DNA of 64,000 nucleotides from a virus: positions 1 to 64,000 of IMG/VR virus record IMGVR_UViG_3300036939_000049, one strand, 5' to 3'. The notes beneath the pieces are model-generated. The model was not told the origin of the DNA. It was given only the letters and a program-made list of their open reading frames with translations, and made no database searches. Of the stretch, positions 2,635 to 50,013 are shown one piece after another. The translations under genes and the position numbers were made by a program. Position 1 is the first letter of the stretch, and every line of letters begins with the position of its first letter.

Positions 2635-2671
2635 TTTTCTTTTCTCCTCTCTCCTTTATTCGCTATTTGTT

Positions 2672-3544
2672 TTAGTTAAAAGCAGGGATAAAACTGGTAT
2701 CCGGTCGCAAATTAGACAAATGGTTAATACGAATTCCTTCCCGCCAATAAGGCATGTCTTTGACGTAAATACTGGCTTGCTCAATGGCTGTTAACGCTTT
2801 AGAGTCTGCGTGCATCCAATTTTCTGCGTGGGGATGATAGCCAAGTATTCGAGCAACGGGCATTCCTACGTTGACGCCCACAGGAACTGGGAAAGGCACA
2901 TTCGCTTCTAGCGTTACTGTTCCATCACGCCCGATACTGGCAATCTTGCCAATTCGAGTTAACGGTGCCATACCTTGGGTTGGAGTCTTGGTAACAGTGC
3001 CAGTACTCACTGTTATGACCAAGTTGTAATTCGCTTCAGTATCTTTTGCGAAAACATAGAGTTCCGCGTCTCGGTTGGTCACCATCAAGTGACTACCCAA
3101 ATACGGGTCTTTATGGATAAATTCCCGTAAGTCAATCGCTAACTGAGCAGGGGATAAACCGAAAGTTCCTTCCCACGTGTAAGTAACGTCGTAGCCATTA
3201 ACTTGGAATCGGAAAGTAGCGTTTTGAGTAACACCCGTCAACGCAAGCCGCACCATCGGTTCGATGAAAAAAAGCTCATCACCCTGGGCGAATACTTGCT
3301 CTAATACAAGCTTTCCAGTTTTTTCTAGGAAGGCTTCCTCTACTTTCGATTCAGGTAAGTATGCTCCTCGCCCGTCTTTGAGGAAGCAGACGAATAGGTG
3401 TGACGGGTATTCCCAGTCTCCTCTGCGATTAAGCGAAAGACGATCATCCCTCATAATGGTGACCGCATTGGGGGTGCGCCAACCTTCTCCACGTGCAGCG
3501 GGAGGTGGTCCAGAATAACTATTGCGATGACGAGAAAACGACAT
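2672..3544 (-). CDS. Probable head structural protein
   Basis: Unrecognised protein of 290 residues, rich in beta-prone segments, with a Pro/Gly/Arg-rich N-terminus (SYSGPPPAARGEGWR). It lies between the acidic scaffold candidate and the major capsid gene on the same strand, where phages often place a decoration or minor capsid protein. The segment FRFQVNGYDVTYTWEG and a following helical part have the look of a modular virion protein. No signal peptide or membrane segment is visible. Confidence 0.55.
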   Translation of the reverse strand: MSFSRHRNSYSGPPPAARGEGWRTPNAVTIMRDDRLSLNRRGDWEYPSHLFVCFLKDGRGAYLPESKVEEAFLEKTGKLVLEQVFAQGDELFFIEPMVRLALTGVTQNATFRFQVNGYDVTYTWEGTFGLSPAQLAIDLREFIHKDPYLGSHLMVTNRDAELYVFAKDTEANYNLVITVSTGTVTKTPTQGMAPLTRIGKIASIGRDGTVTLEANVPFPVPVGVNVGMPVARILGYHPHAENWMHADSKALTAIEQASIYVKDMPYWREGIRINHLSNLRPDTSFIPAFN

Positions 3545-3562
3545 AATCTAAAAGTTGAAAAT

Positions 3563-4687
3563 TTAATTGCGACCTAGCATGTGCAAAATATTGCGACGCG
3601 CTTGAACTTCTAGGGCGTCTATTTCGCTTAGCTCCTCAGCGCTAAACTCAGCCTCATGACTCAGCATCTGAGGCGAGTAAAGCGGTGTACCACCTTCCGC
3701 AAACTCAGCAAACATCTCAATCGTTCGCGCTTTGTGCGCTAACTCCGAGGCATAATCTGTGCCATTTTGCTCACAGCACATCGAAAAACCCGCAAAGCGA
3801 TCGCGTTCAGATTCCCAGCGCCCAAATTCCCGTTCAAACACGGCATAGGGCATAACGCCCATTTGCACTAAATCTGAAGCCTGCCGCTCCAAATCATCTA
3901 AAGCTTCACTGACATCTTGAGTGGTACGGGCTTGACTGAACTCTGCTTGCAGACGCTGATTTTGGCGGCGCTGATATAAGACTTCTTCTTCTAGAGCACC
4001 CACCGCGTCAACAATGGGGTCATCGTAGTAGTCTTCATCGTCGCCTTCGTACCCGCCCATCAAGACGTAGTAGTCCTCTTCAATGCCTTGATATTGCAGA
4101 GCAATTTCATCAAAGAGTTCTTCGGCTTGTTCCTCGGAGATTTCTCCGTTTTCAAAGAGTTCCTCAATGGCATCGCAGTCATTTTCTAGTTCCGCGATCG
4201 CGACATCGACGACCTCATCAAGTTCTTCAGGAGAAAGCTGCTCCAAAATAGCAATACCTTCTTCTTCAACTTCCTCAAGATCGTCTTCGTCTAACTCTTC
4301 GTCATCATCAAGAAGTTCATCTTCCGGGATATCTTCTAGGTCGGCTACTTCATCAAGAAGTGCTTCTAAATATTCCCGTTCGCTTTGGTAAAGGTCTTCG
4401 GCTTCCTCTTGAGTAAGAATACCTTCCTCTACGTCATCCAAGAGAGAGGCTTCAACAGTTCCAAGAATATCCTCAAGGGCTTCAATATCTCCCTCAAGCG
4501 CTAGTTCCTCAATGATGCTGTCGCCTTCTTCCTCTTCTTCGGGACTGAGTTCCTCGTAATACTCATCCTCAATCTCTTCGTATTCTTCCAGATTAGGACT
4601 GACAACAGCGGCATCAAAATTAGCAGTGCGAGAGAAAGTAGCTAACTTATTTTGCAAATGAGTTGATCGTCTATCGTGAAATTGCAT
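3563..4687 (-). CDS. Very acidic protein, scaffold candidate
   Basis: Protein of 374 residues. Residues about 30-230 are dominated by Asp, Glu, Leu and Ile with several uninterrupted acidic runs and helical heptads; the last 140 residues are a more ordinary helical region ending ARRNILHMLGRN. Located between the protease candidate and the major capsid gene, it fits an internal scaffolding protein that would line the procapsid and be removed before DNA packaging. An acidic mimic of DNA, or a partner for the neighbouring basic proteins, is the main alternative. No enzyme motif is visible. Confidence 0.55.
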   Translation of the reverse strand: MQFHDRRSTHLQNKLATFSRTANFDAAVVSPNLEEYEEIEDEYYEELSPEEEEEGDSIIEELALEGDIEALEDILGTVEASLLDDVEEGILTQEEAEDLYQSEREYLEALLDEVADLEDIPEDELLDDDEELDEDDLEEVEEEGIAILEQLSPEELDEVVDVAIAELENDCDAIEELFENGEISEEQAEELFDEIALQYQGIEEDYYVLMGGYEGDDEDYYDDPIVDAVGALEEEVLYQRRQNQRLQAEFSQARTTQDVSEALDDLERQASDLVQMGVMPYAVFEREFGRWESERDRFAGFSMCCEQNGTDYASELAHKARTIEMFAEFAEGGTPLYSPQMLSHEAEFSAEELSEIDALEVQARRNILHMLGRN

Positions 4688-13727: not shown

Positions 13728-15137
13728 ATGGCTTTAAATGATTTGACCAGGGTCGCAATTCCTACTATCCGACAAGAAACAGCTATCAAGCCGCATCATG
13801 ATATTGTTTACGACTTGGATCGGATTAGTATTGGTCCACCAGCTATTAGAGAAGGTCGTATTCATTTAGAGCAGCATGTTGTTGGCGCAGACCTTGACCA
13901 AATCATTTCAGACTACACCAGTGGTATTGGTGCTCTTAGAAGTGAAGTCAATAATTGGCAACGTGGTGTAACACGAGATTATACTGTCGCGGCATTAGCA
14001 CCAACCCTAGCAGACGTAGCCACCGCTACAGTACCGACCTACCCCGCTCCTGCGCCTACTTACGCAAACTGGGTGTTAGTTCCAATTGGACCCGACGCGG
14101 GGATCTATGACCGAACAACCGGAACCGCTATTACACTCGACGGCTTCCCTGTAGGGACTCAGGTCACCGTTGATACATTAGCTGGTGATGGTGCGTCAGG
14201 AATTTTTCAAGTTAAGAACGAACCCACTGTTGGTGGCGTACCTCAGTTTGAGCCGTTTATTCGGTTCACACCTTATGATCGACGACTCGCGATAAAACTG
14301 GATGCCGATCAGCACACATTTTATTTAGATATTTCTCCTCGTTTAACTCAGGCTGGTGACATTCTCAGCTTCTCGCCAGCAACTGAAGCTGAATTAACTG
14401 GACTGCACGATACAGACAACACCATCATTCAAACCAATACCCAACAGCAGGGGCAAATTGATGGCAATGCACGTGATATTACGACTGAGCGGCTGCGTAA
14501 TGACACTCAAGACACGCGACTAACAGCAAATGAAACGTTAGACACTCAGCAGAATACACGCTTAACGACGAACGAACAGGCAATTGAAGCAGAGCGTCAG
14601 CTCAATCAAACCCAAAACGGCACTCTTGATATCCACACGCAGCAACTGGGCAGTTTAGCAACGCGGACAACCCAGCTAGAGGGACGCCAGAATCTTGATG
14701 ACGAACTCAATACCCAACAGCAATCTCGATTGTCGGGAATTGAGCAGCAATTGCCGACGTTTGATACACCTGAATTGAGAGATAGCGCGATCGCGCAGGC
14801 AATTCAAACGTTCTGGGCGAGCAAGTTCCCGAAAGTTGCTTTAATTTCTGGAGATTCCAGAGTTCAGGCGAATTACGATGCCGTGCGAAACGAGACAACG
14901 TTTGTTGTGTCTGGATTACCAGCAGGTTCGCACATATCGCGTGTTCGTGACCCGGAGGGTTATGCTGCTGAAATTTTAAAAGATCGCTCGATTAACAATG
15001 GCTCAACGCTGAGCTTTGCCGTCAAAGGTAATGTTCCACTCTCGGCAACTGCGGAAGGTGCTTGGAAAGTCAGTATTTCTGGTCATGTCCCACTGAACTA
15101 CACAGAAACCGCCACAACGCCCCAGCCAACGCTCTAA
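13728..15137 (+). CDS. Tail fibre/baseplate protein with coiled-coil
   Basis: Protein of 469 residues. The N-terminal 230 residues are globular and may attach to the tail. Residues about 235-345 form a Gln/Thr/Asn-rich helical stretch (TNTQQQGQIDGNARDITTE and similar) that fits a trimeric coiled coil. The last 100 residues carry the domain shared with the 12907-13245 product. This is the usual organisation of a tail fibre or collar fibre. Exact position on the virion is unknown. Confidence 0.65.
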   Translation: MALNDLTRVAIPTIRQETAIKPHHDIVYDLDRISIGPPAIREGRIHLEQHVVGADLDQIISDYTSGIGALRSEVNNWQRGVTRDYTVAALAPTLADVATATVPTYPAPAPTYANWVLVPIGPDAGIYDRTTGTAITLDGFPVGTQVTVDTLAGDGASGIFQVKNEPTVGGVPQFEPFIRFTPYDRRLAIKLDADQHTFYLDISPRLTQAGDILSFSPATEAELTGLHDTDNTIIQTNTQQQGQIDGNARDITTERLRNDTQDTRLTANETLDTQQNTRLTTNEQAIEAERQLNQTQNGTLDIHTQQLGSLATRTTQLEGRQNLDDELNTQQQSRLSGIEQQLPTFDTPELRDSAIAQAIQTFWASKFPKVALISGDSRVQANYDAVRNETTFVVSGLPAGSHISRVRDPEGYAAEILKDRSINNGSTLSFAVKGNVPLSATAEGAWKVSISGHVPLNYTETATTPQPTL

Positions 15138-15155
15138 CCCTCCTGCCACCAATAG

Positions 15156-15548
15156 ATGAAACCTTTTCAAAATATTTCATTTCCAGGAGATTCAAGACAT
15201 CCGTGGGTGCAAGACCCTAGGGACAAGCGTTTCTTTTTTATTTCACTTACCAGGGCTTGGAATCCCCAAAAAGATACCTACTATGAGAAAAATCCTCAAA
15301 CAGGGGAGTTCCAAGCTCTGGTCTTCGATCCCGATTTCTTGAATAAGCGGTTGAAGGGCAACGTCATCCCGGAGGATTCAATAGGTATTTCCAGTGATGG
15401 CTTAACGTTGTGGCGTTTTTCTTTGGATTCAACAGCAACGCTTGAGATCGAGAAAATGGCTTTCGATACAGCTGAAGAAAGCGGATATATCACCAGTAGT
15501 GGTCAGCTATACACTGACAAAGAAGGGAGGGTGCTTTCTCCGGCATGA
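15156..15548 (+). CDS. Hypothetical tail-region protein
   Basis: Unrecognised protein of 130 residues, rich in aromatic residues at the N-terminus (NISFPGDSRHPW). Its stop overlaps the start of the following fibre gene (ATGA), so translation is probably coupled. It could be a fibre subunit or assembly helper. Confidence 0.5.
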   Translation: MKPFQNISFPGDSRHPWVQDPRDKRFFFISLTRAWNPQKDTYYEKNPQTGEFQALVFDPDFLNKRLKGNVIPEDSIGISSDGLTLWRFSLDSTATLEIEKMAFDTAEESGYITSSGQLYTDKEGRVLSPA

Positions 15549-17056
15549 ATATCAAGCTAAACGACTCTAGTTTTCCTCGTGTCTTAGCAGAGCAACTGGC
15601 TGGGAAAGAATTTAAGTTAGGCGATGACTCTCTCGCTTTAGCAACCGAGCTAATTGAGTTTATTCGTAGCCAACTTGAATTAGAACAATACGTTAGGGTC
15701 GTAAATGGGCTTATCCCATCAGCTACCCTGCCCGCCAACTTCAGTACCCGCTATACTGCTGCTTCTCAGACCGAAATGTTTGCCCTAGGTGCGCGTATCG
15801 GTGAGACTTGCATTCGCACAGATCTGAATCCAAGGCAGGTGTTCACAGTCATTAACGAACCCAGTAACGTTCTAGCTAGCTGGGATAATATTACAGATCA
15901 GGTCACTGCAATCTTAATTAATGGGCAGCAAGGTCCCATCTTTAATTTGGCGGCAGTTGATGTTGGTGCTGACCCTGTGGGCAGTTCTGCTACTGTTAGA
16001 GCACTTCTTGACTCCCACGCAAATAGTCGTAACAATCCTCATCAAGTCTCTTTGTCTCAACTAGGAGCCACAGCTTTAGGACGGAGCTTGGTTGAGGCTT
16101 CTACAGCTACTTCTGTACTAGCAATCTTAGGTTTAGGGACAGCAGCGACAGCTAATGTTGGGGATTTTGATTTAATTGGTGCAGCTAAAGCGGTGCAGGA
16201 CTTACTCACCAAGCATGTAGGCGATAGTAATAATCCTCATACCGTAAGCCTAGCTCAGCTCGGAGCAACCGCGTTGGGAATCGCGTTAGTTCAATCTGCC
16301 AATGCTGCGGCGGCAATCTCTCTTCTAGGTCTAGGAACTGCGGCTACCCGTAATTCTAGCGATTTCGATCCTAGTGGTTCAGCCGCGTCTGTATATGGGC
16401 AATTAGTAACCCATGCTCAAGACATCAATAACCCACACCAAGTAAGCTTAGCTCAACTGGGGGTTAGTACCTTTGGGATTAATTTTACCAAAGCCGCCAC
16501 AGCCAAAGCCGCTAGATCTATCATCTCTCAAGGATACGACTACTATCAAACTTCTGTTCCCACTGCACCACTTATAGGAGAGTCTTGGGGAGAATTAGAT
16601 GTTAACGGTGTATTAATTGACGAGTGGGTGTTTAACGGCTTGCGGTGGATAGGAAAACAAACTCTTGCAAAAGCATCAGCCCAAGCTAACTTCTCAACTT
16701 ATCCTGGTGCTGTATTTTTTGGTTATTTTGGTTCATCGCGAGATATTTTAGTTCAAAGAATTTCATTCAATCATAACCAAGCCTCAGGGTTTGTCGCGGG
16801 ATCTACTTATTGTTCAGCAAGATTTCAATTAACAGGTGTTCAGTTAGACCAAACGGGTAGCGGTACAAATTACCGGGAAATTGGCGTTGTCAATCAAATC
16901 TCCACAACCGCTTGTAGCGAAAAAGATATTAATCAGATTTTTACAACGGGTCTTCAACACTATGCTGTTGGTGTCCACGTTACAAAAGTAGGGACTGGAA
17001 CTACTTCAACGATTTTTACTAGTTTTGGAATTCACTACAAGTGGGTCAGAAAATAA
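15545..17056 (+). CDS. Tail fibre with NNPH repeats
   Basis: Protein of 503 residues. The N-terminal domain (1-140) is shared with the fibre at 17614-18459. Residues about 155-310 contain three units built on NNPHQVSLSQLGATALG, separated by spacers such as LGLGTAA; the NNPH-x-V-x3-QL pattern is typical of the shaft of phage tail fibres. The C-terminal 180 residues have no match to the second fibre and would form the receptor-binding tip. It probably binds the host surface. Confidence 0.75.
   Translation: MNIKLNDSSFPRVLAEQLAGKEFKLGDDSLALATELIEFIRSQLELEQYVRVVNGLIPSATLPANFSTRYTAASQTEMFALGARIGETCIRTDLNPRQVFTVINEPSNVLASWDNITDQVTAILINGQQGPIFNLAAVDVGADPVGSSATVRALLDSHANSRNNPHQVSLSQLGATALGRSLVEASTATSVLAILGLGTAATANVGDFDLIGAAKAVQDLLTKHVGDSNNPHTVSLAQLGATALGIALVQSANAAAAISLLGLGTAATRNSSDFDPSGSAASVYGQLVTHAQDINNPHQVSLAQLGVSTFGINFTKAATAKAARSIISQGYDYYQTSVPTAPLIGESWGELDVNGVLIDEWVFNGLRWIGKQTLAKASAQANFSTYPGAVFFGYFGSSRDILVQRISFNHNQASGFVAGSTYCSARFQLTGVQLDQTGSGTNYREIGVVNQISTTACSEKDINQIFTTGLQHYAVGVHVTKVGTGTTSTIFTSFGIHYKWVRK
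15825..15913 (+). repeat. Fibre-gene direct repeat, copy 1 of 89 bp
   Basis: This stretch inside the first fibre gene recurs at 17897-17985 with a single mismatch, while DNA on both sides has diverged more. It encodes the end of the shared N-terminal domain (NPRQVFTVINEPSNVLASWD). Such a block can serve as a recombination joint for exchanging fibre tips. Confidence 0.75.
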
Positions 17057-19529: not shown

Positions 19530-19903
19530 CGATCGCGTCTGTCATTTCTTTCGTCTACGCGATCATATAAGTTGCTTACCTGGACTTCAAGCCACAGGGT
19601 TTTTTGAGTTAGTTCGGTAATCTTTTCTTGCTGCTCAGACTTAATTTTAGTTAAGTCTTTAATATTTTCTTTATTTTCTTGAGCAACAGCCCACACAATT
19701 TTAAGCTTATCAAATAACCATTTAGCCGCGCCAGCCACCATTGGTACGGAACCTAAAATAGGCTTCCAATCAACATGGGCTGCTTCTTTATCTTGTAAAC
19801 CAGACTGTAACACCCATGCAATAATAACAGCTATACCTACGCCAATAAGCAATAGGATTACTAAATCAATGTAGCTAGAATTCCGTACTGGAGGTTGCGT
19901 CAT
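19526..19903 (-). CDS. Membrane protein with coiled coil, lysis-associated
   Basis: Protein of 125 residues. One membrane segment lies near residues 12-34 (LVILLLIGVGIAVIIAWVL), a second weak hydrophobic stretch near 50-62, and residues about 70-118 form a charged coiled coil (ENKENIKDLTKIKSEQQEK). The start overlaps the response regulator-FHA gene by 29 bases. In the lysis cassette it could be a spanin-like or second holin component; the coiled coil fits the former better. Confidence 0.55.
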   Translation of the reverse strand: MTQPPVRNSSYIDLVILLLIGVGIAVIIAWVLQSGLQDKEAAHVDWKPILGSVPMVAGAAKWLFDKLKIVWAVAQENKENIKDLTKIKSEQQEKITELTQKTLWLEVQVSNLYDRVDERNDRRDR

Positions 19904-20657
19904 CTGTGTCTGGTTTTTTTACTTTATACTCCAAAAAGACATTTGGGGCTATTTGAATTTTTTCCCCACCTTTTAGTTCAATCACACCATCAACCCTAAC
20001 CCCGTCTATCCACAGCCCATAGTTGCATGGCTGCGGCGTTTTTCCTATAGTGCCATCAACTAAATAGCACCCTGGTGGTTGTTGTGTAGGACGTTTTTTC
20101 TTAAAAGTACAATGAAATCGAGAAACAGCTTTGTCATCCAATTGTATCTGACACTCTTTACTGCGACCAACTAAAGTTATATCTTGTAGTTCAAATGTTG
20201 CACCTTCTGGATGAGCTGGAGATATAACAGAAACAAAATACCGTGTAACCCGTAAATTCGAGTTTGTTGAAGATTGATGAGTTTGTTTTAATCGAGCATT
20301 TACTGACTCTAATAATTCTTTTCTGGTAAATGGTTTCGTAATATAATCTTGTGCCCCAAGGTTCATGCCTTGACGTGTATCTTCCCTTGCTATGCGCGCC
20401 GTAAGAAGAATTACAGGTGTAGCTGCGGTATTTGGGTCACGACGAACTCGCTGTAGTAAGACAAGACCGTCGTCTTGACCCTGCATCGCAATATCACTAA
20501 TTATGAGATCTGGCTTTGTATCACCACCAAATACTAAGCGCAATGCATCTGAAAGGTTAACGGCTTCTGTGACAACGTGTCCTTCATCTGAAAGAACTTC
20601 TACCAGATTCTCTCGAATAGCAGCGTCGTCTTCAACTACCAAAATTTGAGCAGCCAC
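19875..20657 (-). CDS. Response regulator receiver-FHA fusion
   Basis: Protein of 260 residues. A CheY-type receiver fills residues 1-130: acidic pair Asp10/Asp11, phospho-acceptor Asp55 in IISDIAM, Thr86 in LLTAR and Lys108 in ITKPF. An FHA domain follows at about 145-245, with GRSKECQIQL, the SRFHC motif and a C-terminal DGVRVDG strand, and would bind phosphothreonine peptides. No DNA-binding or enzyme domain is present. The gene starts four bases after the endolysin stop and overlaps the next lysis gene, so it is part of that operon. All receiver catalytic residues are present, so it may be phosphorylated by a host kinase. Confidence 0.88.
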   Translation of the reverse strand: MAAQILVVEDDAAIRENLVEVLSDEGHVVTEAVNLSDALRLVFGGDTKPDLIISDIAMQGQDDGLVLLQRVRRDPNTAATPVILLTARIAREDTRQGMNLGAQDYITKPFTRKELLESVNARLKQTHQSSTNSNLRVTRYFVSVISPAHPEGATFELQDITLVGRSKECQIQLDDKAVSRFHCTFKKKRPTQQPPGCYLVDGTIGKTPQPCNYGLWIDGVRVDGVIELKGGEKIQIAPNVFLEYKVKKPDTDDATSSTEF

Positions 20658-20661
20658 ACAA

Positions 20662-21834
20662 TTAATGGTTAACCTCTAACGGTACTTGCTTAAAACCCGC
20701 TTCGCGAAGCGCGTGCATACAATCCTCAATTCGTCTAAAAATACGGCTGCTCATTGCGACAATGCACCCAGCACTTCCAGGAGAGTAGCCCCGGTTCGCG
20801 TCATCATGAACAAAAAATTCTCCCCTACTTACCCCACTGATCATCACAGGGTCGGGAGTCATGTAGTAAGCATTCCCGTCTATGCCCTTAACCCCTCTTC
20901 GATCGTCAGGCAAAGTTCGCACCCAATAATGCGGAATCCCTACAGCACGATGTCCAGGTATGGGGCCTAACCCTTTCATTTTAGTCCCTCCGCTGTACTG
21001 GTAGGCTCTTTGCCCAGATGTACATTCAAAGGTTAGTTCTTCTCCTCGAAAACCATGTAATCTTAAGACGCCAACAATCAAGACGCCAGGCGGATGATCG
21101 TTTAAAGGCATATCGAAGGTAAAAACTGGCTTTAATGCTGTAGACGTGGAAATAGTAGGAGTTAAGGGCAAAGTACGCCACCGTTGCGCTAGCTCAGTTA
21201 AAACGTGAGGAGAGTTCCGCTCAAGCTCATCTTGCAGGTACGCGATCGCGCTGTCTTGATGCGGCAAACTTTTATAGTGGCGGCAGATATCAAGCAACTG
21301 AATCATGGAGACTTGCTGTCGCTGAAACAATTCCCCTTGTCGCAGCCACCAAGAGTCCAGTACCTCTGATCGCAGTTCAACAATACCTTGCTTCCACAAC
21401 AAAGCTTCAGCAATTCTTCGACGCTTCAGTCCCAGTAACTCAATGCGTCCCTCCCCTCGGAACCACAACAACATCCGTTTTAATGCTTCATCGTGTTGTC
21501 CTTGATTAAGGAGTTTGAGGAAACCCGATTCTAAGAACTGCTCCTCAACGGCGTTGTAAGCAAAGCTAAGAATTGCCTCGTACTGGTTCTGGTCTAAAGG
21601 AACTTTAATCGCATTTTCAATAAAATTTTGCTTTGCTGCTATAGTTCTCAGCAAATACTGCTCTGCTTGAAGCTCAGTAATAGTCAGTCCCGGAGTGACC
21701 CAACCCCCTGTGGAGCCGTAACCAATGGTTAGCCAAGACTCATGCCTCCCTTTTCCCAAAGACACATGCTCGGCTTTAGGCGAAAATCCCTCAAAATACT
21801 TTATCAGCTTGAGCGCACGACTAATATCTCTCAT
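20662..21834 (-). CDS. Endolysin: GH24 lysozyme plus L,D-transpeptidase-like domain
   Basis: Protein of 390 residues. Residues 1-150 are a phage lysozyme of the GH24 type: Glu15 in KYFEGF, TIGYGSTGG at 36-44, and LDQNQYEAILSFAYN. A helical middle of about 60 residues follows. The C-terminal part has FFVHDDANRGY and SAGCIV (Cys near 357), the spacing of a YkuD-type L,D-transpeptidase active site, which may cut, bind or modify peptide cross-links. No signal peptide is seen, so a holin would be required. It overlaps the upstream membrane protein gene by 14 bases. Confidence 0.8.
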   Translation of the reverse strand: MRDISRALKLIKYFEGFSPKAEHVSLGKGRHESWLTIGYGSTGGWVTPGLTITELQAEQYLLRTIAAKQNFIENAIKVPLDQNQYEAILSFAYNAVEEQFLESGFLKLLNQGQHDEALKRMLLWFRGEGRIELLGLKRRRIAEALLWKQGIVELRSEVLDSWWLRQGELFQRQQVSMIQLLDICRHYKSLPHQDSAIAYLQDELERNSPHVLTELAQRWRTLPLTPTISTSTALKPVFTFDMPLNDHPPGVLIVGVLRLHGFRGEELTFECTSGQRAYQYSGGTKMKGLGPIPGHRAVGIPHYWVRTLPDDRRGVKGIDGNAYYMTPDPVMISGVSRGEFFVHDDANRGYSPGSAGCIVAMSSRIFRRIEDCMHALREAGFKQVPLEVNH

Positions 21835-24765: not shown

Positions 24766-24978
24766 GTGGAATTAGTGGAGAACCAGATTAAGGTTTCTCG
24801 CATGGATAAGCAAGGAACTACCGTGCGGCAATACTCAGGGCGAAATATACAAGCGTTGATGGACGCGATCGCGCTTGATGCTCCAGCCATGCGCCCGGAT
24901 CATGCGTTGTACTTGGGTGTGATGCTTGAACGTGCTTGGAATGCTTTGCGATACGGCGAAAAGTTTATACAAGGCTAA
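24766..24978 (+). CDS. Small protein before the reductase gene
   Basis: Protein of 70 residues with a GTG start. An N-terminal beta-prone part (QIKVSRMDKQGTTVRQYSG) is followed by a helix ending MLERAWNALRYG. It ends five bases before the proposed NrdA start on the same strand, so it is probably cotranscribed. It might supply a regulatory or helical part missing from the compact NrdA, but this is speculative. Confidence 0.45.
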   Translation: MELVENQIKVSRMDKQGTTVRQYSGRNIQALMDAIALDAPAMRPDHALYLGVMLERAWNALRYGEKFIQG

Positions 24979-24983
24979 AAACA

Positions 24984-26339
24984 TTGATCGAAATTCCAAA
25001 ATACACAGCCGTCACCGGCAGAATCGAAAGCTGGCTAAAAAATCCAGAAAGCAAGCTTCCTGTTTCTTGTACAGTACTCGAAGTACAAGACAGCATGGAA
25101 GGACGTGATGGGATTGAAGATTCTTGGATCTTTGCCTCTAAAGCATTACGGTACGCGGCTGGGGTGGCTTTAGATCTATCAAACCTCCGACCCAAAGGCA
25201 AAAGTAACGGACGCGGCTTAGTAGCATCGGGTCCAGTGAGTTTTTGCCAAATCTACTCCAAGCTAAACGAGACTATACGTCGTGGTGGGTGGTACAAGAA
25301 TGGCGCGCTCACTGTTTATGTCGATCATCGACATCAAGATGCTGAAGAATTCTTAAACGCTAGCCGCAATGAACTCCCTTGGGTAAAAAGAGCGCTGTAC
25401 GTTGATGAAAGTTTTCTGTCTTCCCCTTTGCTGCCCCTAATTAAAGCCAAAGTTGACGACGGAACTGTATGGCTTGCCAAGAAGCGCTGGGATAAAAACG
25501 GGAACAGACTTTTTTCTCAGGTTTGCTTAGAGATACTACTGCGATCAAGAGGCACATGTCTTCTTGCTCATGCCAACTTAGGAGAGACACCTATTGGGGC
25601 TATACCTTCAGCATTCAAAAACGCCATGAGGTTTTTGTGTGAAATACACAAAGTAACTGGTGTAGGAGAGTCCGAAATTTATCTATCACCTGAAGAAGAC
25701 CGACAAGTTGGTTTGGGTGTACTGGGCTTAGCTAATCTGCTAGCCATTGAAGGGGTTAGCTACGCCGAACTCGTCCGAGCAATGGAAAAAGCCTTGTCTG
25801 CTGGCTACTGGGCTTGGAGCATGGACAAGGCCGAGCAAATTGCGCTAGCTCTGTTGGAAGGTTTCCAGCAGGCAGCGGCAGTAGCCAAAGCTTACGGCAT
25901 GGATCGCGCCTTCACGGTAGCGCCAACAGCTAGCTGCTCTTACAGATATCGCGATCGCGAAGGCTACACCACAGCCCCTGAAATCTCGCCCCCAAACTGC
26001 CACCCCATTACGAAGGAAGTAGACCGGGACTCCGGCACGTTCGGCGTAATGACCTACCAGTATCACCCCAGCACGGAAACAGCGGCATCTGTGGAGTGGG
26101 ATGTGCAGTGGCGGCTATTAAAGGTATGGCAGATGTATATGGAAAGTACCGGACTGGCACATTCAATTAGTGCCAATATCTGGGACAAGCAGGCAATTAC
26201 AACCGAGTGGTTAAAAGATTGGTGGGAGTCCCCTTTGGTTACAACATACTACAGGCTTGTCACTCAGCAAGCTGCCGTGGATAAGAGTACAGTCTGGAAC
26301 CAGTGTAACGACGAAGTTTGTTCAGCGTGTGCGGAGTAA
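24984..26339 (+). CDS. nrdA: Compact ribonucleotide reductase large subunit (NrdA-like)
   Basis: Protein of 451 residues from TTG 24984, preceded by AAGG; an ATG at 24936 would overlap the upstream gene. It would reduce ribonucleotides to deoxynucleotides. Motifs follow the class I order: SCTVLEV (E. coli Cys225), SQVCLEI (thiyl Cys439 with Glu441), GTCLLAHANLG (Cys462), a TASCSYRYR phosphate loop, TTYY (Tyr730/731), and the C-terminal pair CNDEVCSAC (Cys754/759). The usual NrdA has about 750 residues, so the ATP-cone and other regulatory parts are missing. Asn437 appears replaced by Gln. It is followed after ten bases by the small subunit. Confidence 0.8.
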   Translation: MIEIPKYTAVTGRIESWLKNPESKLPVSCTVLEVQDSMEGRDGIEDSWIFASKALRYAAGVALDLSNLRPKGKSNGRGLVASGPVSFCQIYSKLNETIRRGGWYKNGALTVYVDHRHQDAEEFLNASRNELPWVKRALYVDESFLSSPLLPLIKAKVDDGTVWLAKKRWDKNGNRLFSQVCLEILLRSRGTCLLAHANLGETPIGAIPSAFKNAMRFLCEIHKVTGVGESEIYLSPEEDRQVGLGVLGLANLLAIEGVSYAELVRAMEKALSAGYWAWSMDKAEQIALALLEGFQQAAAVAKAYGMDRAFTVAPTASCSYRYRDREGYTTAPEISPPNCHPITKEVDRDSGTFGVMTYQYHPSTETAASVEWDVQWRLLKVWQMYMESTGLAHSISANIWDKQAITTEWLKDWWESPLVTTYYRLVTQQAAVDKSTVWNQCNDEVCSACAE

Positions 26340-26349
26340 GTAGTAAGAA

Positions 26350-27066
26350 ATGTCGTTTTACAGCAATTTGCTAGCAAAAAAACGTTTGTGGTCCCCAACA
26401 ATGGGGGATAAACAGCCAGTAATGCCAGGAAGCGAAGGAACTATTGGTCGCTGCTTGGCTTTGCGTGTACTGGAGATTCCCGTTGGGGACTGGGTGAACG
26501 AAACCCAAGAAAAAGGAACATTACCAGAAGACGCGATCACGCTCCTCAAATCCAACGCCGAGGACGAGCTTAAACACGACAAACTACTACAAATGGCGCA
26601 CGACACTTATGCGTTGACTACGGTAGAGATGCAACAGGAAGCTAACGTGATCGCGCTCGAATGGTTCAAGCATCCAGACCCCCCAATAGTAAAAGCCTTC
26701 GTACTGGAAAATGCCGTGTTTTTTATCATTTTGCCCATCCTGCGGAAGTTTGGTGGACAAGGACTGAGAAATGCAGCGTTCGATATTAGCTCAGACGAAA
26801 GTATTCACGCGCCATGTAACAGAGCTGTAGCGAAACGTATGGGATACTCGTTCAGTCCAAGTTTGGATAAGCTACGTGATCGCACAGCCCGGTTTTTAGT
26901 GCGTGACTTAAATGCCCCTGGTAAGCTAGGTCTTCCTCAGCCTTGGCTAGATGCTTCAGAAAGCTTGTTGCATAAGGGACTAGCCCCTCAGTTACAAGAG
27001 ACTCAAAATTACATAATGCCTGCGTTTTTTGAATCTCACGCTGCCGACCTCCCGCAGTACTCCTAG
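26350..27066 (+). CDS. nrdB: Compact ribonucleotide reductase small subunit (NrdB-like), Tyr-less
   Basis: Protein of 238 residues, shorter than the common 320-380. Ferritin-like metal motifs are visible: EDELKHD (Glu115 and His118 in E. coli numbering), VLENAVFF (Glu204) and SDESIH (Glu238 and His241). The residue four after the first His, where the radical Tyr122 should be, is Leu. All visible carboxylates are kept, so it may use a metal-based oxidant like the Tyr-less class I subtypes rather than a tyrosyl radical. It is coupled to NrdA. A ferritin-like relative is possible but the context favours NrdB. Confidence 0.75.
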   Translation: MSFYSNLLAKKRLWSPTMGDKQPVMPGSEGTIGRCLALRVLEIPVGDWVNETQEKGTLPEDAITLLKSNAEDELKHDKLLQMAHDTYALTTVEMQQEANVIALEWFKHPDPPIVKAFVLENAVFFIILPILRKFGGQGLRNAAFDISSDESIHAPCNRAVAKRMGYSFSPSLDKLRDRTARFLVRDLNAPGKLGLPQPWLDASESLLHKGLAPQLQETQNYIMPAFFESHAADLPQYS

Positions 27067-28111: not shown

Positions 28112-28190
28112 GCAAGAAAAACTGCAAAACAAAAGACAGCCGTCGTAGCCGTCTTTTGAGTAGTAAATATTTGATTAAGGCTTGATAATT

Positions 28191-29027
28191 GTGAGCAGTA
28201 TTGAATGGACGGATGCCACATGGAATTGGTTAACTGGTTGTTCTCGTACCAGTCCGGAATGTGACTTTTGTTATGCAGCAGAGGCAGCCAAGTCAGCTCG
28301 GTTGCAACAGTTTTCCCAATATCAAGGGGTAGAGAAGTGGGATGGAACCGTCAATTTTGCGGAGAGTCAGCTAGAGAAGCCACTCTCATGGCGCAAGCCA
28401 AAACGAATATTCACCTGTTCGATGTCGGATGTATTCCACGAAAACGTTCCTGATGAATGGCGCGATCGCGCTTTTGCAGTCATGGCGATCGCGAATCACC
28501 ACACGTATCAAGTTCTAACGAAGCGAACCGCAAGGATGGTGGAATATTTTTCTCAACCTAACCTCGGCAAGCGCTGGGCAAAGATTATTGAGAGTAATTT
28601 TATGTCTAGTCCATGCCTTGGGCATTTATTGGACGAGCTAAAAGAGGACTGCTTTTTAGGTAATGTGTGGCTTGGAACTACAGCTGGGTGCCAAGAGTCT
28701 GTACGTGATCGCGTACCTCTAATATCTGGGCTAACAGATAAAGGCTGGACAACCTTCATTAGTGCAGAACCACTACTTGAAGAACTGCATTTAGGTTTTG
28801 CCTTTCCTGGGTATCGAGTTAGTTGGGTTATCACTGGTGCTGAGTCTGGTCGTAGTGCTCGTCCAATGAATGAAGACTGGGTAAGAAATTTACGCGATCA
28901 ATGCGTAGAGGCGGATGTAGCGTTCTTCTACAAGCAAGATTTTAAAAAAGGCAAAAAAATCAGCTTGCCAGAACTAGACGGTAAGCAGTGGGCTGAATTT
29001 CCACAAAAACAGGAGGTGGCAGCGTGA
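28191..29027 (+). CDS. Phage Gp37/Gp68-family protein (DUF5131)
   Basis: Protein of 278 residues from GTG 28191. It opens with SSIEWTDATWNWLTGCSRTS and has the Cys cluster CSRTSPECDFCYA, followed by RIFTCSMSDVFHE and a C-terminal SWVITGAESG, FYKQDF and a GKQWAEFP end. These are the conserved parts of the Gp37/Gp68 family, whose Cys cluster resembles an iron-sulphur/radical-SAM-like site; its reaction is not established. It overlaps RNase HII by four bases, so the two are cotranslated. Confidence 0.8.
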   Translation: MSSIEWTDATWNWLTGCSRTSPECDFCYAAEAAKSARLQQFSQYQGVEKWDGTVNFAESQLEKPLSWRKPKRIFTCSMSDVFHENVPDEWRDRAFAVMAIANHHTYQVLTKRTARMVEYFSQPNLGKRWAKIIESNFMSSPCLGHLLDELKEDCFLGNVWLGTTAGCQESVRDRVPLISGLTDKGWTTFISAEPLLEELHLGFAFPGYRVSWVITGAESGRSARPMNEDWVRNLRDQCVEADVAFFYKQDFKKGKKISLPELDGKQWAEFPQKQEVAA

Positions 29028-29602
29028 TTGTTGCTCGTGTCGAAGAATCAAAGCGCGGAAACTGGTTCGGTCCTATTGTCGCGATCGCGTCCATACCATT
29101 CGACGACAAAGCTCCCGAACTCGCTCGGTTACTCAAAGGTCGAAAAGGGCAGCTACGGGATTCCAAGATGATGTCCAAGATCGTTCGCCAGAAACTTCTA
29201 CCTCAAATTCAAGAGTCTATTATCTGGCGTATTGGCTACGCTACAGCGACTGAAATTGAGCGAAACGGTATTTACTGGGCTTGGGCAAAGGCTTGTGATA
29301 GAGCCGTACAAAAACTCCCCATTGTCCCAGATCGCGTACTGGTTGATGGCAACCAAAAGATTCCTTGCCTCGAAATTCCCCAGACAACTTTGGTTGATGG
29401 AGACAAGCGAGATTTCTGCCTTGCTGCCTCCAGCGTGATCGTCAAAGAATGGTCCGACGGTTTAGTAGAACGACTAGGAAAGAAATACCCTCATGCATTG
29501 GACAAGCATCACGGATATGGCACGGTACAGCATCGCCAAGAACTAGCACTACACGGGCTAACTCCTCAGCATCGTAAAGGCTTCTGCCAGCGGTACGCCT
29601 AG
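29024..29602 (+). CDS. rnhB: Ribonuclease HII
   Basis: Protein of 192 residues that would remove ribonucleotides or RNA primers from DNA hybrids. It matches the family: RVEESKRGNWFGPIVA at residues 5-20 (normally DExGRGxxxGP), LRDSKMMS, VLVDGN, a central GDKRDFCLAASSVIVKEW and DKHHGYGT near the end. In the first motif the usual Asp is replaced by Glu, so the first metal ligand may be altered. It overlaps the upstream Gp37-like gene and, at its 3' end, the convergent GIY-YIG gene by four bases. Confidence 0.8.
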   Translation: MIVARVEESKRGNWFGPIVAIASIPFDDKAPELARLLKGRKGQLRDSKMMSKIVRQKLLPQIQESIIWRIGYATATEIERNGIYWAWAKACDRAVQKLPIVPDRVLVDGNQKIPCLEIPQTTLVDGDKRDFCLAASSVIVKEWSDGLVERLGKKYPHALDKHHGYGTVQHRQELALHGLTPQHRKGFCQRYA

Positions 29603-32163: not shown

Positions 32164-32174
32164 ACAAATTTGTG
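32128..32174 (+). repeat. 47-bp direct repeat, copy 2
   Basis: Near-identical to 31514-31560. It is followed directly by a 12-base inverted repeat upstream of the Dam gene. Confidence 0.75.
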
Positions 32175-32201
32175 TCGCATTTATGTAACAAATGCGACAC
32201 A
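32171..32201. promoter_or_regulatory. Operator-like inverted repeat before Dam gene
   Basis: TGTGTCGCATTT and AAATGCGACACA form a perfect 12-base inverted repeat with a 7-base centre, 31 bases before the Dam start. The half-site ATTTGCGAC occurs again at 32212-32220. It would bind a dimeric regulator of the methyltransferase and replication genes. Confidence 0.55.
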
Positions 32202-32231
32202 AAACTAACCCATTTGCGACATTATACTACG

Positions 32232-33059
32232 ATGATGGCTATTTCACGTCCAGCCTTACGTTATCCCGGTGGTAAATTTCGGGATGGGTATTGGATTATC
32301 AACCACTTCCCCAAACACATGACTTACTGCGAACCATTCGGTGGTGGTGGTTCAGTCCTACTACTTAAGCAACCTTCGACCTATGAGTTCTACAATGATC
32401 TCGACGGAGAGGTTGTTAACTTCTTCAAGATGCTGCGTGACAGAGGAAGCGCGTTAATTGAGAAGATTCAACTCACGCCTTACAGCCGAGTAGAACAAGA
32501 ACTCAGCCGTATTCCAGAAGGTGATGAATTGGAAAGGGCGAGACGTTTCTATACCAGAAGTTGGCAGACCATAAATGGTGCAGAAAAACGTTATGCCTCT
32601 GGCTGGCGAAATATATATAAAAGTACTCGCGGGACTGATGTGATTCGCGAGTGGAATAACACTGAACACTTGCAGGCAGTTGTTTGGCGGCTTCGTCAAG
32701 TTCAGATTGAAAACCGTCCAGCCTTAGATTTAGTTAAGCGCATTGATACTGAGGAAACTCTGTTTTATTTCGATCCACCCTATGTAAAGAGCACTCGATC
32801 TGAAAAGCATAGAGATTTGTATAAATTTGAGTTGAACGACGAAGAACATTGTCAACTAAGTAAAGTCATTCATTCGCTCAAAGGAATGAGCATCATCTCT
32901 GGGTATGACTGTGCGTTATATCGAGAACTCTTTAAGGATTTTTACTTAGTTAAGAAAAAGACAACCAAAAATCATGGCAAAACAGCCATTGAATGTCTTT
33001 GGCTTTCACCAAATGTCATAAAAAGTCAACAACAATTAAACCTATTTGAGGTGCAGTAA
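32232..33059 (+). CDS. dam: D12-class adenine methyltransferase (Dam-like)
   Basis: Protein of 275 residues from ATG 32232. It would transfer a methyl group from S-adenosylmethionine to adenine N6, probably in GATC. Motifs: RYPGGKF (motif X), CEPFGGGGSVLL (motif I), FYFDPPYVKSTR (catalytic motif IV), and a C-terminal VIHSLKGMSIISGYDC. No restriction enzyme is next to it. The stop overlaps the replication protein start by one base. GATC lies in the HIP1 palindrome of the host. Confidence 0.85.
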   Translation: MMAISRPALRYPGGKFRDGYWIINHFPKHMTYCEPFGGGGSVLLLKQPSTYEFYNDLDGEVVNFFKMLRDRGSALIEKIQLTPYSRVEQELSRIPEGDELERARRFYTRSWQTINGAEKRYASGWRNIYKSTRGTDVIREWNNTEHLQAVVWRLRQVQIENRPALDLVKRIDTEETLFYFDPPYVKSTRSEKHRDLYKFELNDEEHCQLSKVIHSLKGMSIISGYDCALYRELFKDFYLVKKKTTKNHGKTAIECLWLSPNVIKSQQQLNLFEVQ

Positions 33060-38550: not shown

Positions 38551-41500
38551 ATGAAACCTCCTCACTTCGCCAAACGCCCAAAACCCCCGCTCCCGTCAGA
38601 CGCCCCTACACTAGTCACTGCGTTTAGCTGCGGCGGGTTGTTTGATGTTGGTGCGTGGCATGCTGGGTTTCGACCTGTATTAGCCGTTGAGTTTTACCCA
38701 GCAAAAGGCAAGAAAGATGACAAAGTTAAACAGCGCCAGTCCGCCGCTGCGGCGGATAACTACGAGCGAAATTTAGGTAAGCACGTTGTCCGCAAAACCA
38801 TTGAAGATGCTGTGCGCGATCGCGTCTTCGCCAATCACATTCAGCAACACGGAAGACCCAACGCCTTCCACTGTTCCCCCAGTTGCACCATGTTTAGTCA
38901 GGGGAATACCAAGGGTGTAGAAGATGAAGGGGATATTAGTGCCGCAATTGCAGTGACACATGCGATCGCACAGCTGAATTTTCCTGAAATTTTTACCCTG
39001 GAAAATGTCGATGCTTATCAAAAGTCAAAATCGTGGGCAATCATTCGCGACTTTCTCTACGCCAACGGGTACGGCGTATCGGGTGATGTGGTATTTGCTT
39101 CGGACTACGGAAATCTTGAGACGGGTGAGGGCGTGCCCCAAGACCGGAAGCGCTTTATTGTTCGCGCTGTAAAAAACCACTTTGCCCCACCGCTCCCGCC
39201 TAGACTTCCTCAGCGGATGGGATGGTTGAACGCGATCGTGGACTTAATTGAGGATCTACCTGAAGGTGAACTCGCACCGTGGCAACTTCAAAGACTACCA
39301 GCGTTGGTCAAGAGTGTACTTGTTGACGCAAAGAATATTCATCCCAACGACAAAATAACCACTAGAGAATTTGATCAGCCTGCATTTACCGTAACGAGTG
39401 ACGATCGTTGTAGGATGCAAGCGTATTTGGTTCGCAACGATAACACCAAGCAGGAGTGGGGAAAAGGTTATCGAGAAGGGGAAGAACCATCGGCTACAGT
39501 TACTGCTACTTACGTCCCTTCGGCTGTGTTGCTGAACGGGCAGAACGCTTCTGGTAAAGAGGTTCCGCACAGACAAGAAGCTGAACCTGCATTCTCTATT
39601 ACGACAGGAGCGAAGTGGGCATCGGCGTTATTAGTTGAGCGGGCCGGCGCAAGCGATGCGCGTATCACAGTTCGTACTGCCGAAGAACCAGCCTGGACTC
39701 TTCGCTCCTCCATCGGCACTGACCAAGATGGACGCAACCGCAATGAAGTGATGAACGTGGTGATGGGGTATCGGGTCAAGCGATTGAATGCTCGTGCGAT
39801 CGCGCGACTCCAATCTGTACCCGACTGGTATGAGCTGCCCGACCAAATGAAAGACGCCGGTCCACTACTGGGGAATGGGGTGCCATGCCTACTGGCAGAA
39901 GCGATTATGAAATCACTACTACGGTTCGTTCAGAAGTCTGAGAGTTCACTCTCACTTAAATCTCAGTTAACCCTTAATTCAAGTTGCGCTCGAACTGAAC
40001 TCGACATTCAGTCCTCTGAAACAGCTCTGAACGGACTCTGCACGCCCAGTGAAAATTCAGTGTCAGTTAACTCTCAGTTCACTCCTAATTCAGATCGCGG
40101 ACAAAGTGAGTTCACTCTATTAAAGGCATCGAACTCGACCAGTCCTCAAAACGAAACACTGAACGGACTCCGAACGGTTACTGAAAATTTAGCGTCACTT
40201 CAAGAGCAATTCAATCCCAGTTCAATCCCAGTTCAGTCTCAGTTCAGTCTCAGTTTAACTCCGGTTAAATCACGGAAACCTTTTTTGAAGTGGGCGGGTA
40301 AAAAGACTTGGGCGATCGCACTTCTCGAAGAACTGTATGCTCCGCACCGACATAAACGCTACCGCGATTTAACCTTAGGCTCAGGTGCAATCCCACTTGC
40401 ACTTAAGCCCAATCGCGCTTACCTCTCGGATAAAAACCCGTTTCTTATCCAGTTGTGGGAGTGGGTTAAGTCTGACGGAAAGCTTACCCTTGACCTGCGG
40501 ACGGATAAGGATTACTACTTAGAGTGTCGAGAGCGGTTTAATACTGGCGATCCGCAGCAAGCGGAGTTACTCTACTACCTCAACCACACCTGCTGGCGAG
40601 GGCTGTATCGCTCTAGCAAAGATAAGTTTTTCAATGTACCGTGGGGCGAGTACAAAGAATTTCACGGGCAGACCGACCTTACCCATTACAAGCAAGTAAT
40701 TGGAAACTGGGAGTTTGCAGTTGAATCCTGGGACGAAAGCTTGCGCCACGTCCAGGATGATGACTTTATCGTTTTTGACCCACCGTACCACTCAGTCAGC
40801 GGCAAAGGGTTTACTCAGTACTGTGGTTCATTCACAGAAGCCGACCAAGTACTAGCCGCCCAAACTTTATCTGAGTTGGGCGTACCCGTTGTGGCATTCA
40901 ACGCCGCTACTGACTTCATCCTCGATCTGTATCGAGGTCTAAACTTTGACGTTCAACTACATGAGGCTCCTCGCATGATTTCTTCTACAGGCGATCGCGC
41001 ACCTGCGCTTGAAATGGTCGCGACCAAAAATACACAAGAGCAAAAGCTGGTCTATATTGAGAATTTCCTTGAGTCTAGACAAGCACAACCGGATGATTCC
41101 GAACTCATGTACACGAATCGTGTACATGAATCTGAAGCTACTGAGGGTGACTTAACCTACGATGAGCAACGCGATCGCGCTCACCTCGAACGGAAAGTTG
41201 AAGGGGCGTTCTATGAGGCCGGTAAAGCGCTGAAGGAGTTACGTGATCTCAGGTTGTACCGGACAACGCACAACGACTTTGAAAGTTACTGCTTAGATCG
41301 ATTTGGCTTTGGTCGCCAGAATGCCCATAAACAAATCAAAGCCGCCGACGTTTTCGAGATTCTGTCTACGAATCATGTACAGATTTTGCCTTCTTGTGTT
41401 GATCAAGCTGCCCCGCTGGCACATGCTGACCTGACGGATGAGCAGCGGATTAAGCTGTGGGAAGACTTAACTCAAGATGGAAGACCCCCGAATGGGAAAA

Positions 41501-42027
41501 AAGTCAGGAATGCGGTGGCTGAGATTTGTGATCGGCAGGCTGCGCGAGGAGAGTACCATAATCCCTGGCAAGTAGGGGATTTGTGCCAGATTCATAAAAA
41601 AGGCGACGGGACTTTAGCCAAATACGACGGAATGTGGGGTATTGTCCGCGAAGTTAAAACCAGACAGTGTATTGTTAAAGTCTGGGATGGGGAGCTGCTG
41701 GTGAAAGCTGAAAATCTGGAACCTCTGGAACTAGGAGAAGAATTTGTTGCGGTGTGCGATCGCGTCCGATCGCTCATGTCCCGCCACATAGATGGGGACA
41801 TCACCCTCAAACGTGGTCAGCTTAGATTCCTTGAGGCGCTGGGTGAGCAAGCTAAGTTTTTTGAGCCTGAAGATGTGGATATGCTTGCCTATATCGAGAA
41901 CTTAACCGCTAACCACGATGCTTCTTTGAAACAGGCTACTCAGTTGCTGGTTGAGAACATTGAGGACTTGAGTGAAGTCGATGCGCGATCACTTTACGAC
42001 GCCCTTCGCACTGTACACGAATTCTGA
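38551..42027 (+). CDS. Triple fusion: C5 methyltransferase, Dam-like methyltransferase and C-terminal domain
   Basis: Protein of 1158 residues. Residues 20-455 are a C5-cytosine methyltransferase: FSCGGLFDVGA (motif I), the catalytic Cys112 in SPSCTMFSQ (PPCQ in most relatives), ENV at 151-153, QDRKRFIV and GNGVP. A Ser/Asn/Leu-rich linker (about 456-570) contains repeated units. Residues 575-835 are a D12 adenine methyltransferase with FLKWAGKK, TLGSGAIPL and FDPPYHS. The C-terminal 300 residues are unrecognised, helical, then KOW-like (DGMWGIVREVKT). The 19-bp palindrome lies exactly at the last joint. It may methylate both C and A in HIP1-type sites. Confidence 0.82.
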   Translation: MKPPHFAKRPKPPLPSDAPTLVTAFSCGGLFDVGAWHAGFRPVLAVEFYPAKGKKDDKVKQRQSAAAADNYERNLGKHVVRKTIEDAVRDRVFANHIQQHGRPNAFHCSPSCTMFSQGNTKGVEDEGDISAAIAVTHAIAQLNFPEIFTLENVDAYQKSKSWAIIRDFLYANGYGVSGDVVFASDYGNLETGEGVPQDRKRFIVRAVKNHFAPPLPPRLPQRMGWLNAIVDLIEDLPEGELAPWQLQRLPALVKSVLVDAKNIHPNDKITTREFDQPAFTVTSDDRCRMQAYLVRNDNTKQEWGKGYREGEEPSATVTATYVPSAVLLNGQNASGKEVPHRQEAEPAFSITTGAKWASALLVERAGASDARITVRTAEEPAWTLRSSIGTDQDGRNRNEVMNVVMGYRVKRLNARAIARLQSVPDWYELPDQMKDAGPLLGNGVPCLLAEAIMKSLLRFVQKSESSLSLKSQLTLNSSCARTELDIQSSETALNGLCTPSENSVSVNSQFTPNSDRGQSEFTLLKASNSTSPQNETLNGLRTVTENLASLQEQFNPSSIPVQSQFSLSLTPVKSRKPFLKWAGKKTWAIALLEELYAPHRHKRYRDLTLGSGAIPLALKPNRAYLSDKNPFLIQLWEWVKSDGKLTLDLRTDKDYYLECRERFNTGDPQQAELLYYLNHTCWRGLYRSSKDKFFNVPWGEYKEFHGQTDLTHYKQVIGNWEFAVESWDESLRHVQDDDFIVFDPPYHSVSGKGFTQYCGSFTEADQVLAAQTLSELGVPVVAFNAATDFILDLYRGLNFDVQLHEAPRMISSTGDRAPALEMVATKNTQEQKLVYIENFLESRQAQPDDSELMYTNRVHESEATEGDLTYDEQRDRAHLERKVEGAFYEAGKALKELRDLRLYRTTHNDFESYCLDRFGFGRQNAHKQIKAADVFEILSTNHVQILPSCVDQAAPLAHADLTDEQRIKLWEDLTQDGRPPNGKKVRNAVAEICDRQAARGEYHNPWQVGDLCQIHKKGDGTLAKYDGMWGIVREVKTRQCIVKVWDGELLVKAENLEPLELGEEFVAVCDRVRSLMSRHIDGDITLKRGQLRFLEALGEQAKFFEPEDVDMLAYIENLTANHDASLKQATQLLVENIEDLSEVDARSLYDALRTVHEF
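41108..41126. repeat. 19-bp palindromic repeat, copy 6, in coding sequence
   Basis: TGTACACGAATCGTGTACA, perfect and with 11-base arms (41106-41128), is read in frame as MYTNRVH between the Dam-like domain and the C-terminal domain. A more degenerate copy is at 41363-41381. At other sites the repeat follows stop codons. Confidence 0.7.
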
Positions 42028-49569: not shown

Positions 49570-49851
49570 CTAGGGTAGTAGTTTTATCCAAAACTCACAC
49601 CGTTTACCTGGATTAGCCGCTGCCGCTCTGGCAATCACTTGAACTAACTTTTCTAATTCCCAGCTTTCTTCATCAGGGCTTCTGAGAATCACCTCAGCTT
49701 CTGGTACTGAGAGGAAAGCGTTCACATGCACTGTTTCGCTGACCTTGTACACGCCTTTTGTTTCGCTCGTCAATAACTCGCCGCTAAGTTCTAACGAACT
49801 ATAGCGGGAGCTTGTGAAAACAGGCTCTAGTTGACCAGACTCAGTTCGCAA
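49570..49851 (-). pseudogene. Gene truncated by the first IscB element
   Basis: The reading frame of 93 residues runs leftward. Its first 27 or so codons are antisense to the scaffold of the first omega-RNA; the rest (KGVYKVSETVHVNAFLSVPE onward) lies outside the element. The simplest reading is that the element inserted into a gene and the present start codon lies inside the element. The intact form is unknown. Confidence 0.5.
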
Positions 49852-50010
49852 GAACTACGTTATTCAGTTCATGAAACCTACAAATACGTGCCAGTTTGTA
49901 GCTCTTTCGTACAACGTTAAACATCTGTAATGAGTTAAGGAAGTGCGTTGTGCTAAAAAAGGCTGGATAACATTGTCGAGGCAAACTTAACCAGTAATGA
50001 GAGTCTCAAA
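49769..50010 (+). ncRNA. Omega-RNA A (HEARO-type guide RNA)
   Basis: The RNA lies upstream of IscB as expected. Stems in A: GTCAA (49769-49773) with TTGAC (49831-49835); CCGCTA with TAGCGG; CTC with GAG; a small hairpin GTTC-TAAC-GAAC; and GAGCTTG with CAGGCTC. Copy B keeps the same stems with different bases. The last 26 nt before the IscB start (49978-50003) are conserved in both. The probable guide is the 16 nt before the scaffold (49753-49768). Confidence 0.75.
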
Positions 50011-50013
50011 GTA

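Follow-up and report, generated by a model that had tools for sequence, protein, structure and literature searches.

A probable class Ø ribonucleotide reductase with an active-site glutamine where asparagine is nearly universal, from an uncultured, apparently cyanobacterial phage

We report a pair of adjacent genes in the virus record IMGVR_UViG_3300036939_000049 that together most probably encode an intact ribonucleotide reductase (RNR) of class Ø, the Cyano SP clade, in an uncultured cyanophage, a reading of family and overall function to which we give a probability of about 90%. The kind is already known, as the Cyano SP clade was described by Harrison 2019 (PMC6370689) and named class Ø by Burnim 2022 (PMC9531940); what is new is this pair as a member. 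Its small size and missing radical tyrosine match the published description of the clade, and are thus ordinary family traits. Judged from alignments, the uncommon feature of this RNR is instead a glutamine replacing a nearly universal active-site asparagine.

Carrier contig and gene neighbourhood

The window, by which we mean the whole 64,000-nucleotide stretch of DNA analysed, is part of a virus contig in IMG/VR that measures 101,252 bases (101 kb); the possibly incomplete record beyond the window was examined by profile search. The contig's major head protein is nearest to those of Pseudanabaena phages PA-SR01 and Pam2 (~25%) and its DNA polymerase to those of Nodularia phages (24%), which suggests that the carrier is a distant, uncultured cyanophage, presumably with a cyanobacterial host. 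The RNR genes and the small gene that adjoins them are as follows.

24766 to 24978, + strand: PterinBD-DUF4346-like small ORF, 70 amino acids (Pfam PF14251, E 9e-10), adjoining the 5' side of the alpha gene
24984 to 26339, + strand: predicted class Ø RNR alpha (catalytic) subunit, 451 amino acids, TTG start (7URG, PF02867, AF2 model)
26350 to 27066, + strand: predicted class Ø RNR beta subunit (ferritin-like, proposed radical initiator), 238 amino acids (phrog_6799, AF2 model)

Both frames are intact, and matches to PDB 7URG and phrog_6799 bear out the original prediction of a 451-residue NrdA-like and a 238-residue NrdB-like protein. The alpha frame is open from 24930 to 26336, with its TTG start at 24984 and its stop codon at 26337-26339; after a gap of 10 nt, beta runs from an ATG at 26350 to a stop ending at 27066. 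Close 3' of the pair, positions 28182-29602 of the window encode a DUF5131 protein and a phage-type RNase HII (phrog_19422).

A sister contig of 154 kb, IMGVR_UViG_3300041964_000083 (L002/L003), encodes an 82%-identical alpha, whose TTG at the matching place supports the start assigned here, and an 80%-identical beta. Its neighbouring genes are also those of the window, namely a DUF4346-like ORF (73% identical, same position), HNH and, downstream of the RNR, the RNase HII; no DUF5131 homologue was found in the examined stretch of the sister. Between the two contigs, dN of the alpha/beta pair is 0.155 and 0.149, and only dN is usable because synonymous sites are saturated. Intact genes, retention of the pair and its neighbours in the sister, and a dN of about 0.15 at saturated synonymous sites together indicate that the RNR pair is under purifying selection.

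Profile search of the 101-kb record gave no match for an ATP-cone (PF03477), thioredoxin, glutaredoxin or NrdI, and a second RNR was sought in it and none found. The window holds several other features. Two IscB-like proteins (RRXRR plus HNH, 427 amino acids each) are encoded at 49769-51297 and 52970-54497, each gene with a HEARO (omega) RNA immediately before it (RF02033, 147 and 132 bits), and this one phage thus carries two complete IscB-omegaRNA units at a distance of 3.2 kb. The 1158-amino-acid product of 38551-42027 joins a C5-cytosine methylase to a D12 N6-adenine methylase, and another methylase is encoded on its own at 32172-33059. At 19875-21834, a response-regulator/FHA protein adjoins a phage lysozyme that has a weak C-terminal match to a Tlde1-like domain.

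The alpha subunit

The best solved match of alpha in a phmmer search is 7URG, the class Ø alpha of Synechococcus phage S-CBP4 (E 1e-131, 442 bits, residues 7-444). Pfam search with the 451-residue protein matched PF02867 (E 2e-24) and found no ATP-cone (PF03477). Structure prediction, proposed earlier as a check on the pair, gave an AlphaFold alpha model (pLDDT 87.7) whose top PDB match is 7urg (TMq 0.85, TMt 0.96, 1.6 Å) and a beta model that matches RNR R2 proteins. Alpha homologues covering at least 80% of the query were found in 56 phage records at 45-51% identity, all of them cyanophages or uncultured phages, and relatives are encoded at 578 or more IMG/VR places; no class Ø match was found in plasmids.

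In a first alpha tree the window falls within the class Ø clade (51 class Ø rows against three outgroup rows, one class I and two class II; 100% SH-aLRT), and in a second it again lies in class Ø (34 rows against two class II rows; support 100/99), although the outgroups of both trees are sparse and their branches very long, and the depth of the class Ø split is beyond the reach of these trees. A placement of the window branch at the base of class Ø was dropped: in the second tree the fork is open, and the outgroup branches are very long.

All five catalytic cysteines first read in alpha (C29, C181, C192, C446 and C449) are present, and E183, equivalent to Glu441, is invariant. Residue counts for alpha come from 151 distinct class Ø alphas aligned together.

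25068 to 25070, + strand: C29, equivalent of E. coli C225, predicted redox pair (Cys in 148/151 alphas, three gaps)
25524 to 25526, + strand: C181, equivalent of C439, predicted thiyl-radical cysteine (151/151)
25557 to 25559, + strand: C192, equivalent of C462, predicted redox pair (151/151)
25992 to 26003, + strand: PNCH, a four-residue insertion in the loop after PEISP (window and sister contig only, 2/151)
26247 to 26252, + strand: Y422-Y423, matching the Y730/Y731 dyad for radical transfer (151/151)
26319 to 26330, + strand: C-terminal CSAC (CXXC) shuttle motif (tail CXXC in 55/151, CXC in 92/151)

The beta subunit

Beta matches phrog_6799 ('ribonucleotide reductase class Ia beta subunit') over residues 1-238 of 238 (E 5e-63), and homologues over at least 80% of its length are found in 56 phage records at 36-44% identity. 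Pfam and NCBIfam profile searches with beta gave no match, a phmmer comparison with solved R2 proteins gave nothing up to E 1, and a 52-row beta profile found R2 proteins only weakly (E ~0.1), ranked under unrelated trigger factors. As these sequence searches gave no firm link between beta and solved R2 proteins, a comparison of folds was needed. The AlphaFold model of beta (pLDDT 91.3) has RNR R2 proteins as all of its best 50 listed PDB fold matches, with modest TM scores (~0.46-0.64), as a smaller protein would lead one to expect. Viral rubrerythrin-like and ferritin-like proteins in BFVD match the model only at E > 0.2.

The following residues are counted over 162 distinct class Ø betas.

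26389 to 26391, + strand: W14, invariant tryptophan, candidate W48 equivalent (162/162)
26473 to 26475, + strand: E42, predicted metal ligand 1 (162/162)
26563 to 26577, + strand: D72 in the second sphere, E73 and H76 as predicted metal ligands 2 and 3 (162/162 each)
26587 to 26589, + strand: L80 at the Tyr122 position, four residues after H76 (Leu 158, Phe 4, Tyr 0 of 162)
26707 to 26709, + strand: E120, predicted metal ligand 4 (162/162)
26794 to 26808, + strand: D149 in the second sphere, E150 and H153 as predicted metal ligands 5 and 6 (162/162 each)
27058 to 27060, + strand: Y237, C-terminal tyrosine (Y356 equivalent), penultimate residue (162/162)

The original prediction had noted retained metal ligands and a leucine at the Tyr122 position; all six ligands and L80 are indeed there, and the leucine proves to be the family rule. 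The radical tyrosine of classes Ia and Ib is absent from beta, and with R2 proteins as the listed fold matches, neither of the two results named in the original prediction as fatal to it came up. The published account of class Ø beta gives a protein of ~240 residues with Phe or Leu at the tyrosine site, a tyrosine one residue before the end and two EXXH motifs (PMC9531940). Likewise, Harrison 2019 recorded E,E,H,E,E,H together with D,D at the metal site in Cyano SP alone (Tables 3 and 4 of PMC6370689), and the window's E42, E73, H76, E120, E150 and H153 with D72 and D149 reproduce those eight residues. Both E/D+EXXH motifs typical of class Ø are present, and the protein ends one residue beyond Y237, without an alpha-binding extension. 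The window beta departs from its relatives at two otherwise near-invariant sites, with Asn for Arg at 121, beside ligand E120, and Phe for Trp at 182.

Comparison with named systems

The S-CBP4 reductase (7URG; PMC9531940) is ~50% identical in alpha and 42% in beta. Its alpha is alike in size, YY dyad, cysteine set, fold and lack of an ATP-cone, and its beta is likewise small, adjacent and ferritin-like, with a redox-inert residue at the tyrosine site and a very short C-terminus. Unlike S-CBP4, the window has Gln for the active-site Asn, CXXC rather than CXC, the four-residue insertion and Asn for Arg beside E120. Prochlorococcus phage P-SSP7 (PMC6370689; 46% alpha and 41% beta identity) shares all eight metal-site residues and also lacks Tyr122 and the ATP-cone, but is a 45-kb podovirus, whereas the window's contig is 101 kb.

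NrdA and NrdB of Microcystis phage Mic1 (MN013189; 49% alpha and 36% beta identity) resemble the window in the CXXC tail, although Mic1 keeps the Asn; the two group together in the first tree, a grouping that is unsettled in the second. Alpha adjoins beta in 144 of the 151 class Ø alphas. The Mic1 genes lie 12 kb apart (alpha at 14956-16467, beta at 28680-29450), an exception to the reported rule of adjacent pairs.

Two divergent pairs came from other contigs. IMGVR_UViG_3300040796_000034 (L204, 127 kb) has, at 1190-3723, a very divergent class Ø-like alpha (575 amino acids) and beta, in which the Glu441 position is Gly (INVCNGIYF) while the cysteines of the finger loop and the redox pair are retained, and IMGVR_UViG_3300047483_000759 (L205) has, at 1120-3633, a deep-branching alpha and beta of 551 and 286 amino acids with Leu at the Tyr122 site. 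Both hint at a class Ø wider than the one so far described. Class Ø genes binned with Flavobacteriales, Planctomycetota and gammaproteobacterial MAGs (L098, L099 and L101-L106) fall among sequences from cyanophages in the tree, and most of the 'bacterial' members may be phage contigs that ended up in bins.

Glutamine at the Asn437 position

The motif NXCXE around the catalytic cysteine is common to classes Ø, I and II, and takes the form NVCLE in 30 of the 35 members of class Ø (PMC9669993). In E. coli, Asn437 and Glu441 contact the substrate 3'-OH, and yeast and T. maritima have equivalent residues (PMC4728125). The original prediction had read a Gln for Asn437, and the alignment agrees:

25518 to 25520, + strand: Q179 (codon CAG) at the Asn437 position, finger loop QVCLE against NVCLE

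NVCLE is typical of class Ø without being strict, and was for this reason not used to define membership; other members vary too. The sister contig, which was independently assembled, has the same Gln with a different codon (CAA), so Q179 is not a sequencing error. Gln at 437 is also found in L052 (an S-CBS4-like phage), L193 and L206, and the tree requires at least four changes of state. As some of its forks are open, at least two origins, on the window branch and in L052, appear clearly separate, and there were probably more. The alpha pattern search gives biased counts at 437, one of its patterns having admitted only N or Q; among the alphas adjoining betas from the beta search, a set free of this bias, Asn is present in 49 of 49. 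With Gln in several lineages, the alignments indicate that Asn-to-Gln change within class Ø is rare but recurrent. Cys137-to-Ala accompanies Asn179-to-Gln in the window, L002 and L052, but a coupling of the two as a specific compensation was rejected, since Mic1 has Ala with Asn, and L018 and L097 have Ser or Thr with Asn.

We put forward only tentatively, as somewhat improbable, the further idea that several class Ø lineages independently swapped the 3'-OH-holding Asn (NXCXE to QXCXE), here together with R121N and W182F beside the beta metal site, in a change that would functionally re-set how the substrate is anchored. Were it true, the window lineage would be an alternative source of protein for finding the class Ø metal cofactor.

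Alternative readings of the pair

The class I status of the clade is disputed, with Cyano SP treated as class I and a possible new subclass in PMC6370689 and class Ø as a separate class in PMC9531940. The pair may thus be a stripped-down true class I RNR of class Ic-like type (Mn/Fe, Phe or Leu at the tyrosine site) that lost domains in phages, which we regard as possible though doubtful. The ferritin-like beta adjoining alpha, the YY dyad, the C-terminal tyrosine, a beta fold closest to class I R2 proteins among the listed PDB matches, and the placement by Harrison 2019 all favour it. Class Ic NrdB of Chlamydia trachomatis is alike in lacking the radical-site tyrosine, in R2 fold and in first-sphere E,E,H,E,E,H; however, its second sphere is Glu/Asp where the window has Asp/Asp (D72/D149; table in PMC6370689), it is ~100 residues longer, and its partner alpha belongs to another clade. 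Alpha also scores higher against class II structures (phmmer E 1e-10) than against class I (4e-8 for class Id, ~1e-3 for most others), and the tree of Burnim 2022 sets class Ø apart from I and II (PMC9531940). Of the original prediction of a minimal class I reductase without an ATP-cone, the compact build, the missing cone and the missing radical tyrosine stand; the clade had already been described, the class I label is the disputed part, and the different radical initiator is probable for the clade as a whole.

These observations count against class Ø as the best explanation: Q179, off NXCXE, could impair substrate binding; R121N and W182F lie in beta; and phmmer gave no link between beta and solved R2 proteins. 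The first raises the reading that the Gln-bearing alpha is catalytically crippled or decaying, given the contact of Asn437 and Glu441 with the substrate and a motif common to three classes. We consider this improbable: the frame is intact, dN is low with synonymous sites saturated, the remaining active-site residues are all kept, and the Gln recurs in several class Ø lineages including the 82%-identical sister.

That the pair is a class II (adenosylcobalamin) reductase, with a small downstream protein of no catalytic role, is very improbable. The top NCBIfam match of alpha and, after 7URG, its top PDB matches are class II, and homologous genes were formerly annotated so. Set against this, the YY dyad is present in 151/151 alphas and in 7URG occupies the space of the adenosyl pocket (PMC9531940), the finger loop has VC rather than the PC of class II NPCXE (PMC9669993), and beta is conserved, keeps a complete metal site and lies next to alpha in nearly all relatives. 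That beta is merely a small ferritin or rubrerythrin-like oxidase and no radical initiator, as its lack of significant matches to the Pfam R2 family and solved R2 sequences might suggest, is the least credible reading given the R2 identity of all 50 listed PDB fold matches, the poor BFVD matches to such proteins and the invariant W14, D149 and Y237.

Proposed mechanism

For the class Ø reading, a working scheme can be drawn from residue conservation and from the class Ic and S-CBP4 precedents, with activity, metal and oxidant inferred clade-wide; published activity or metal measurements on class Ø RNRs were looked for in PMC9531940 and PMC12918982 and not found. Alpha would dimerise via its specificity site, by homology with S-CBP4 alpha plus TTP. 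Beta would hold a two-metal centre through E42, E73, H76, E120, E150 and H153. With Leu where Tyr122 would be, it is this centre, once oxidised, that would itself serve as the one-electron oxidant. By analogy, a metal-centred, tyrosine-free oxidant is probable; the centre would most likely be Mn/Fe or another Mn or Fe combination, O2-activated, and Mn/Fe in particular is a candidate that we rate at somewhat under even odds. The hole could then pass from W14/D149 of beta through Y237 to Y423, Y422 and C181 of alpha, where the C181 thiyl radical would initiate NDP reduction. Electrons would come from C29 and C192, which the CSAC tail would re-reduce, itself probably reduced by host thioredoxin. 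Since no thioredoxin, glutaredoxin or NrdI was found in the contig, reduction and any help with assembly would fall to the host, and lacking an ATP-cone the enzyme would have no dATP off-switch.

Implications

A compact, tyrosine-less reductase is in itself unsurprising to specialists since 2019-2022. The Gln at the Asn437 site indicates that a position common to classes Ø, I and II can change. The class Ø ferritin-like proteins are reported to be hard to handle without metals (PMC9531940), and for the question of radical initiation in class Ø, divergent, clearly selected pairs such as that of the window would widen the choice of proteins for testing.
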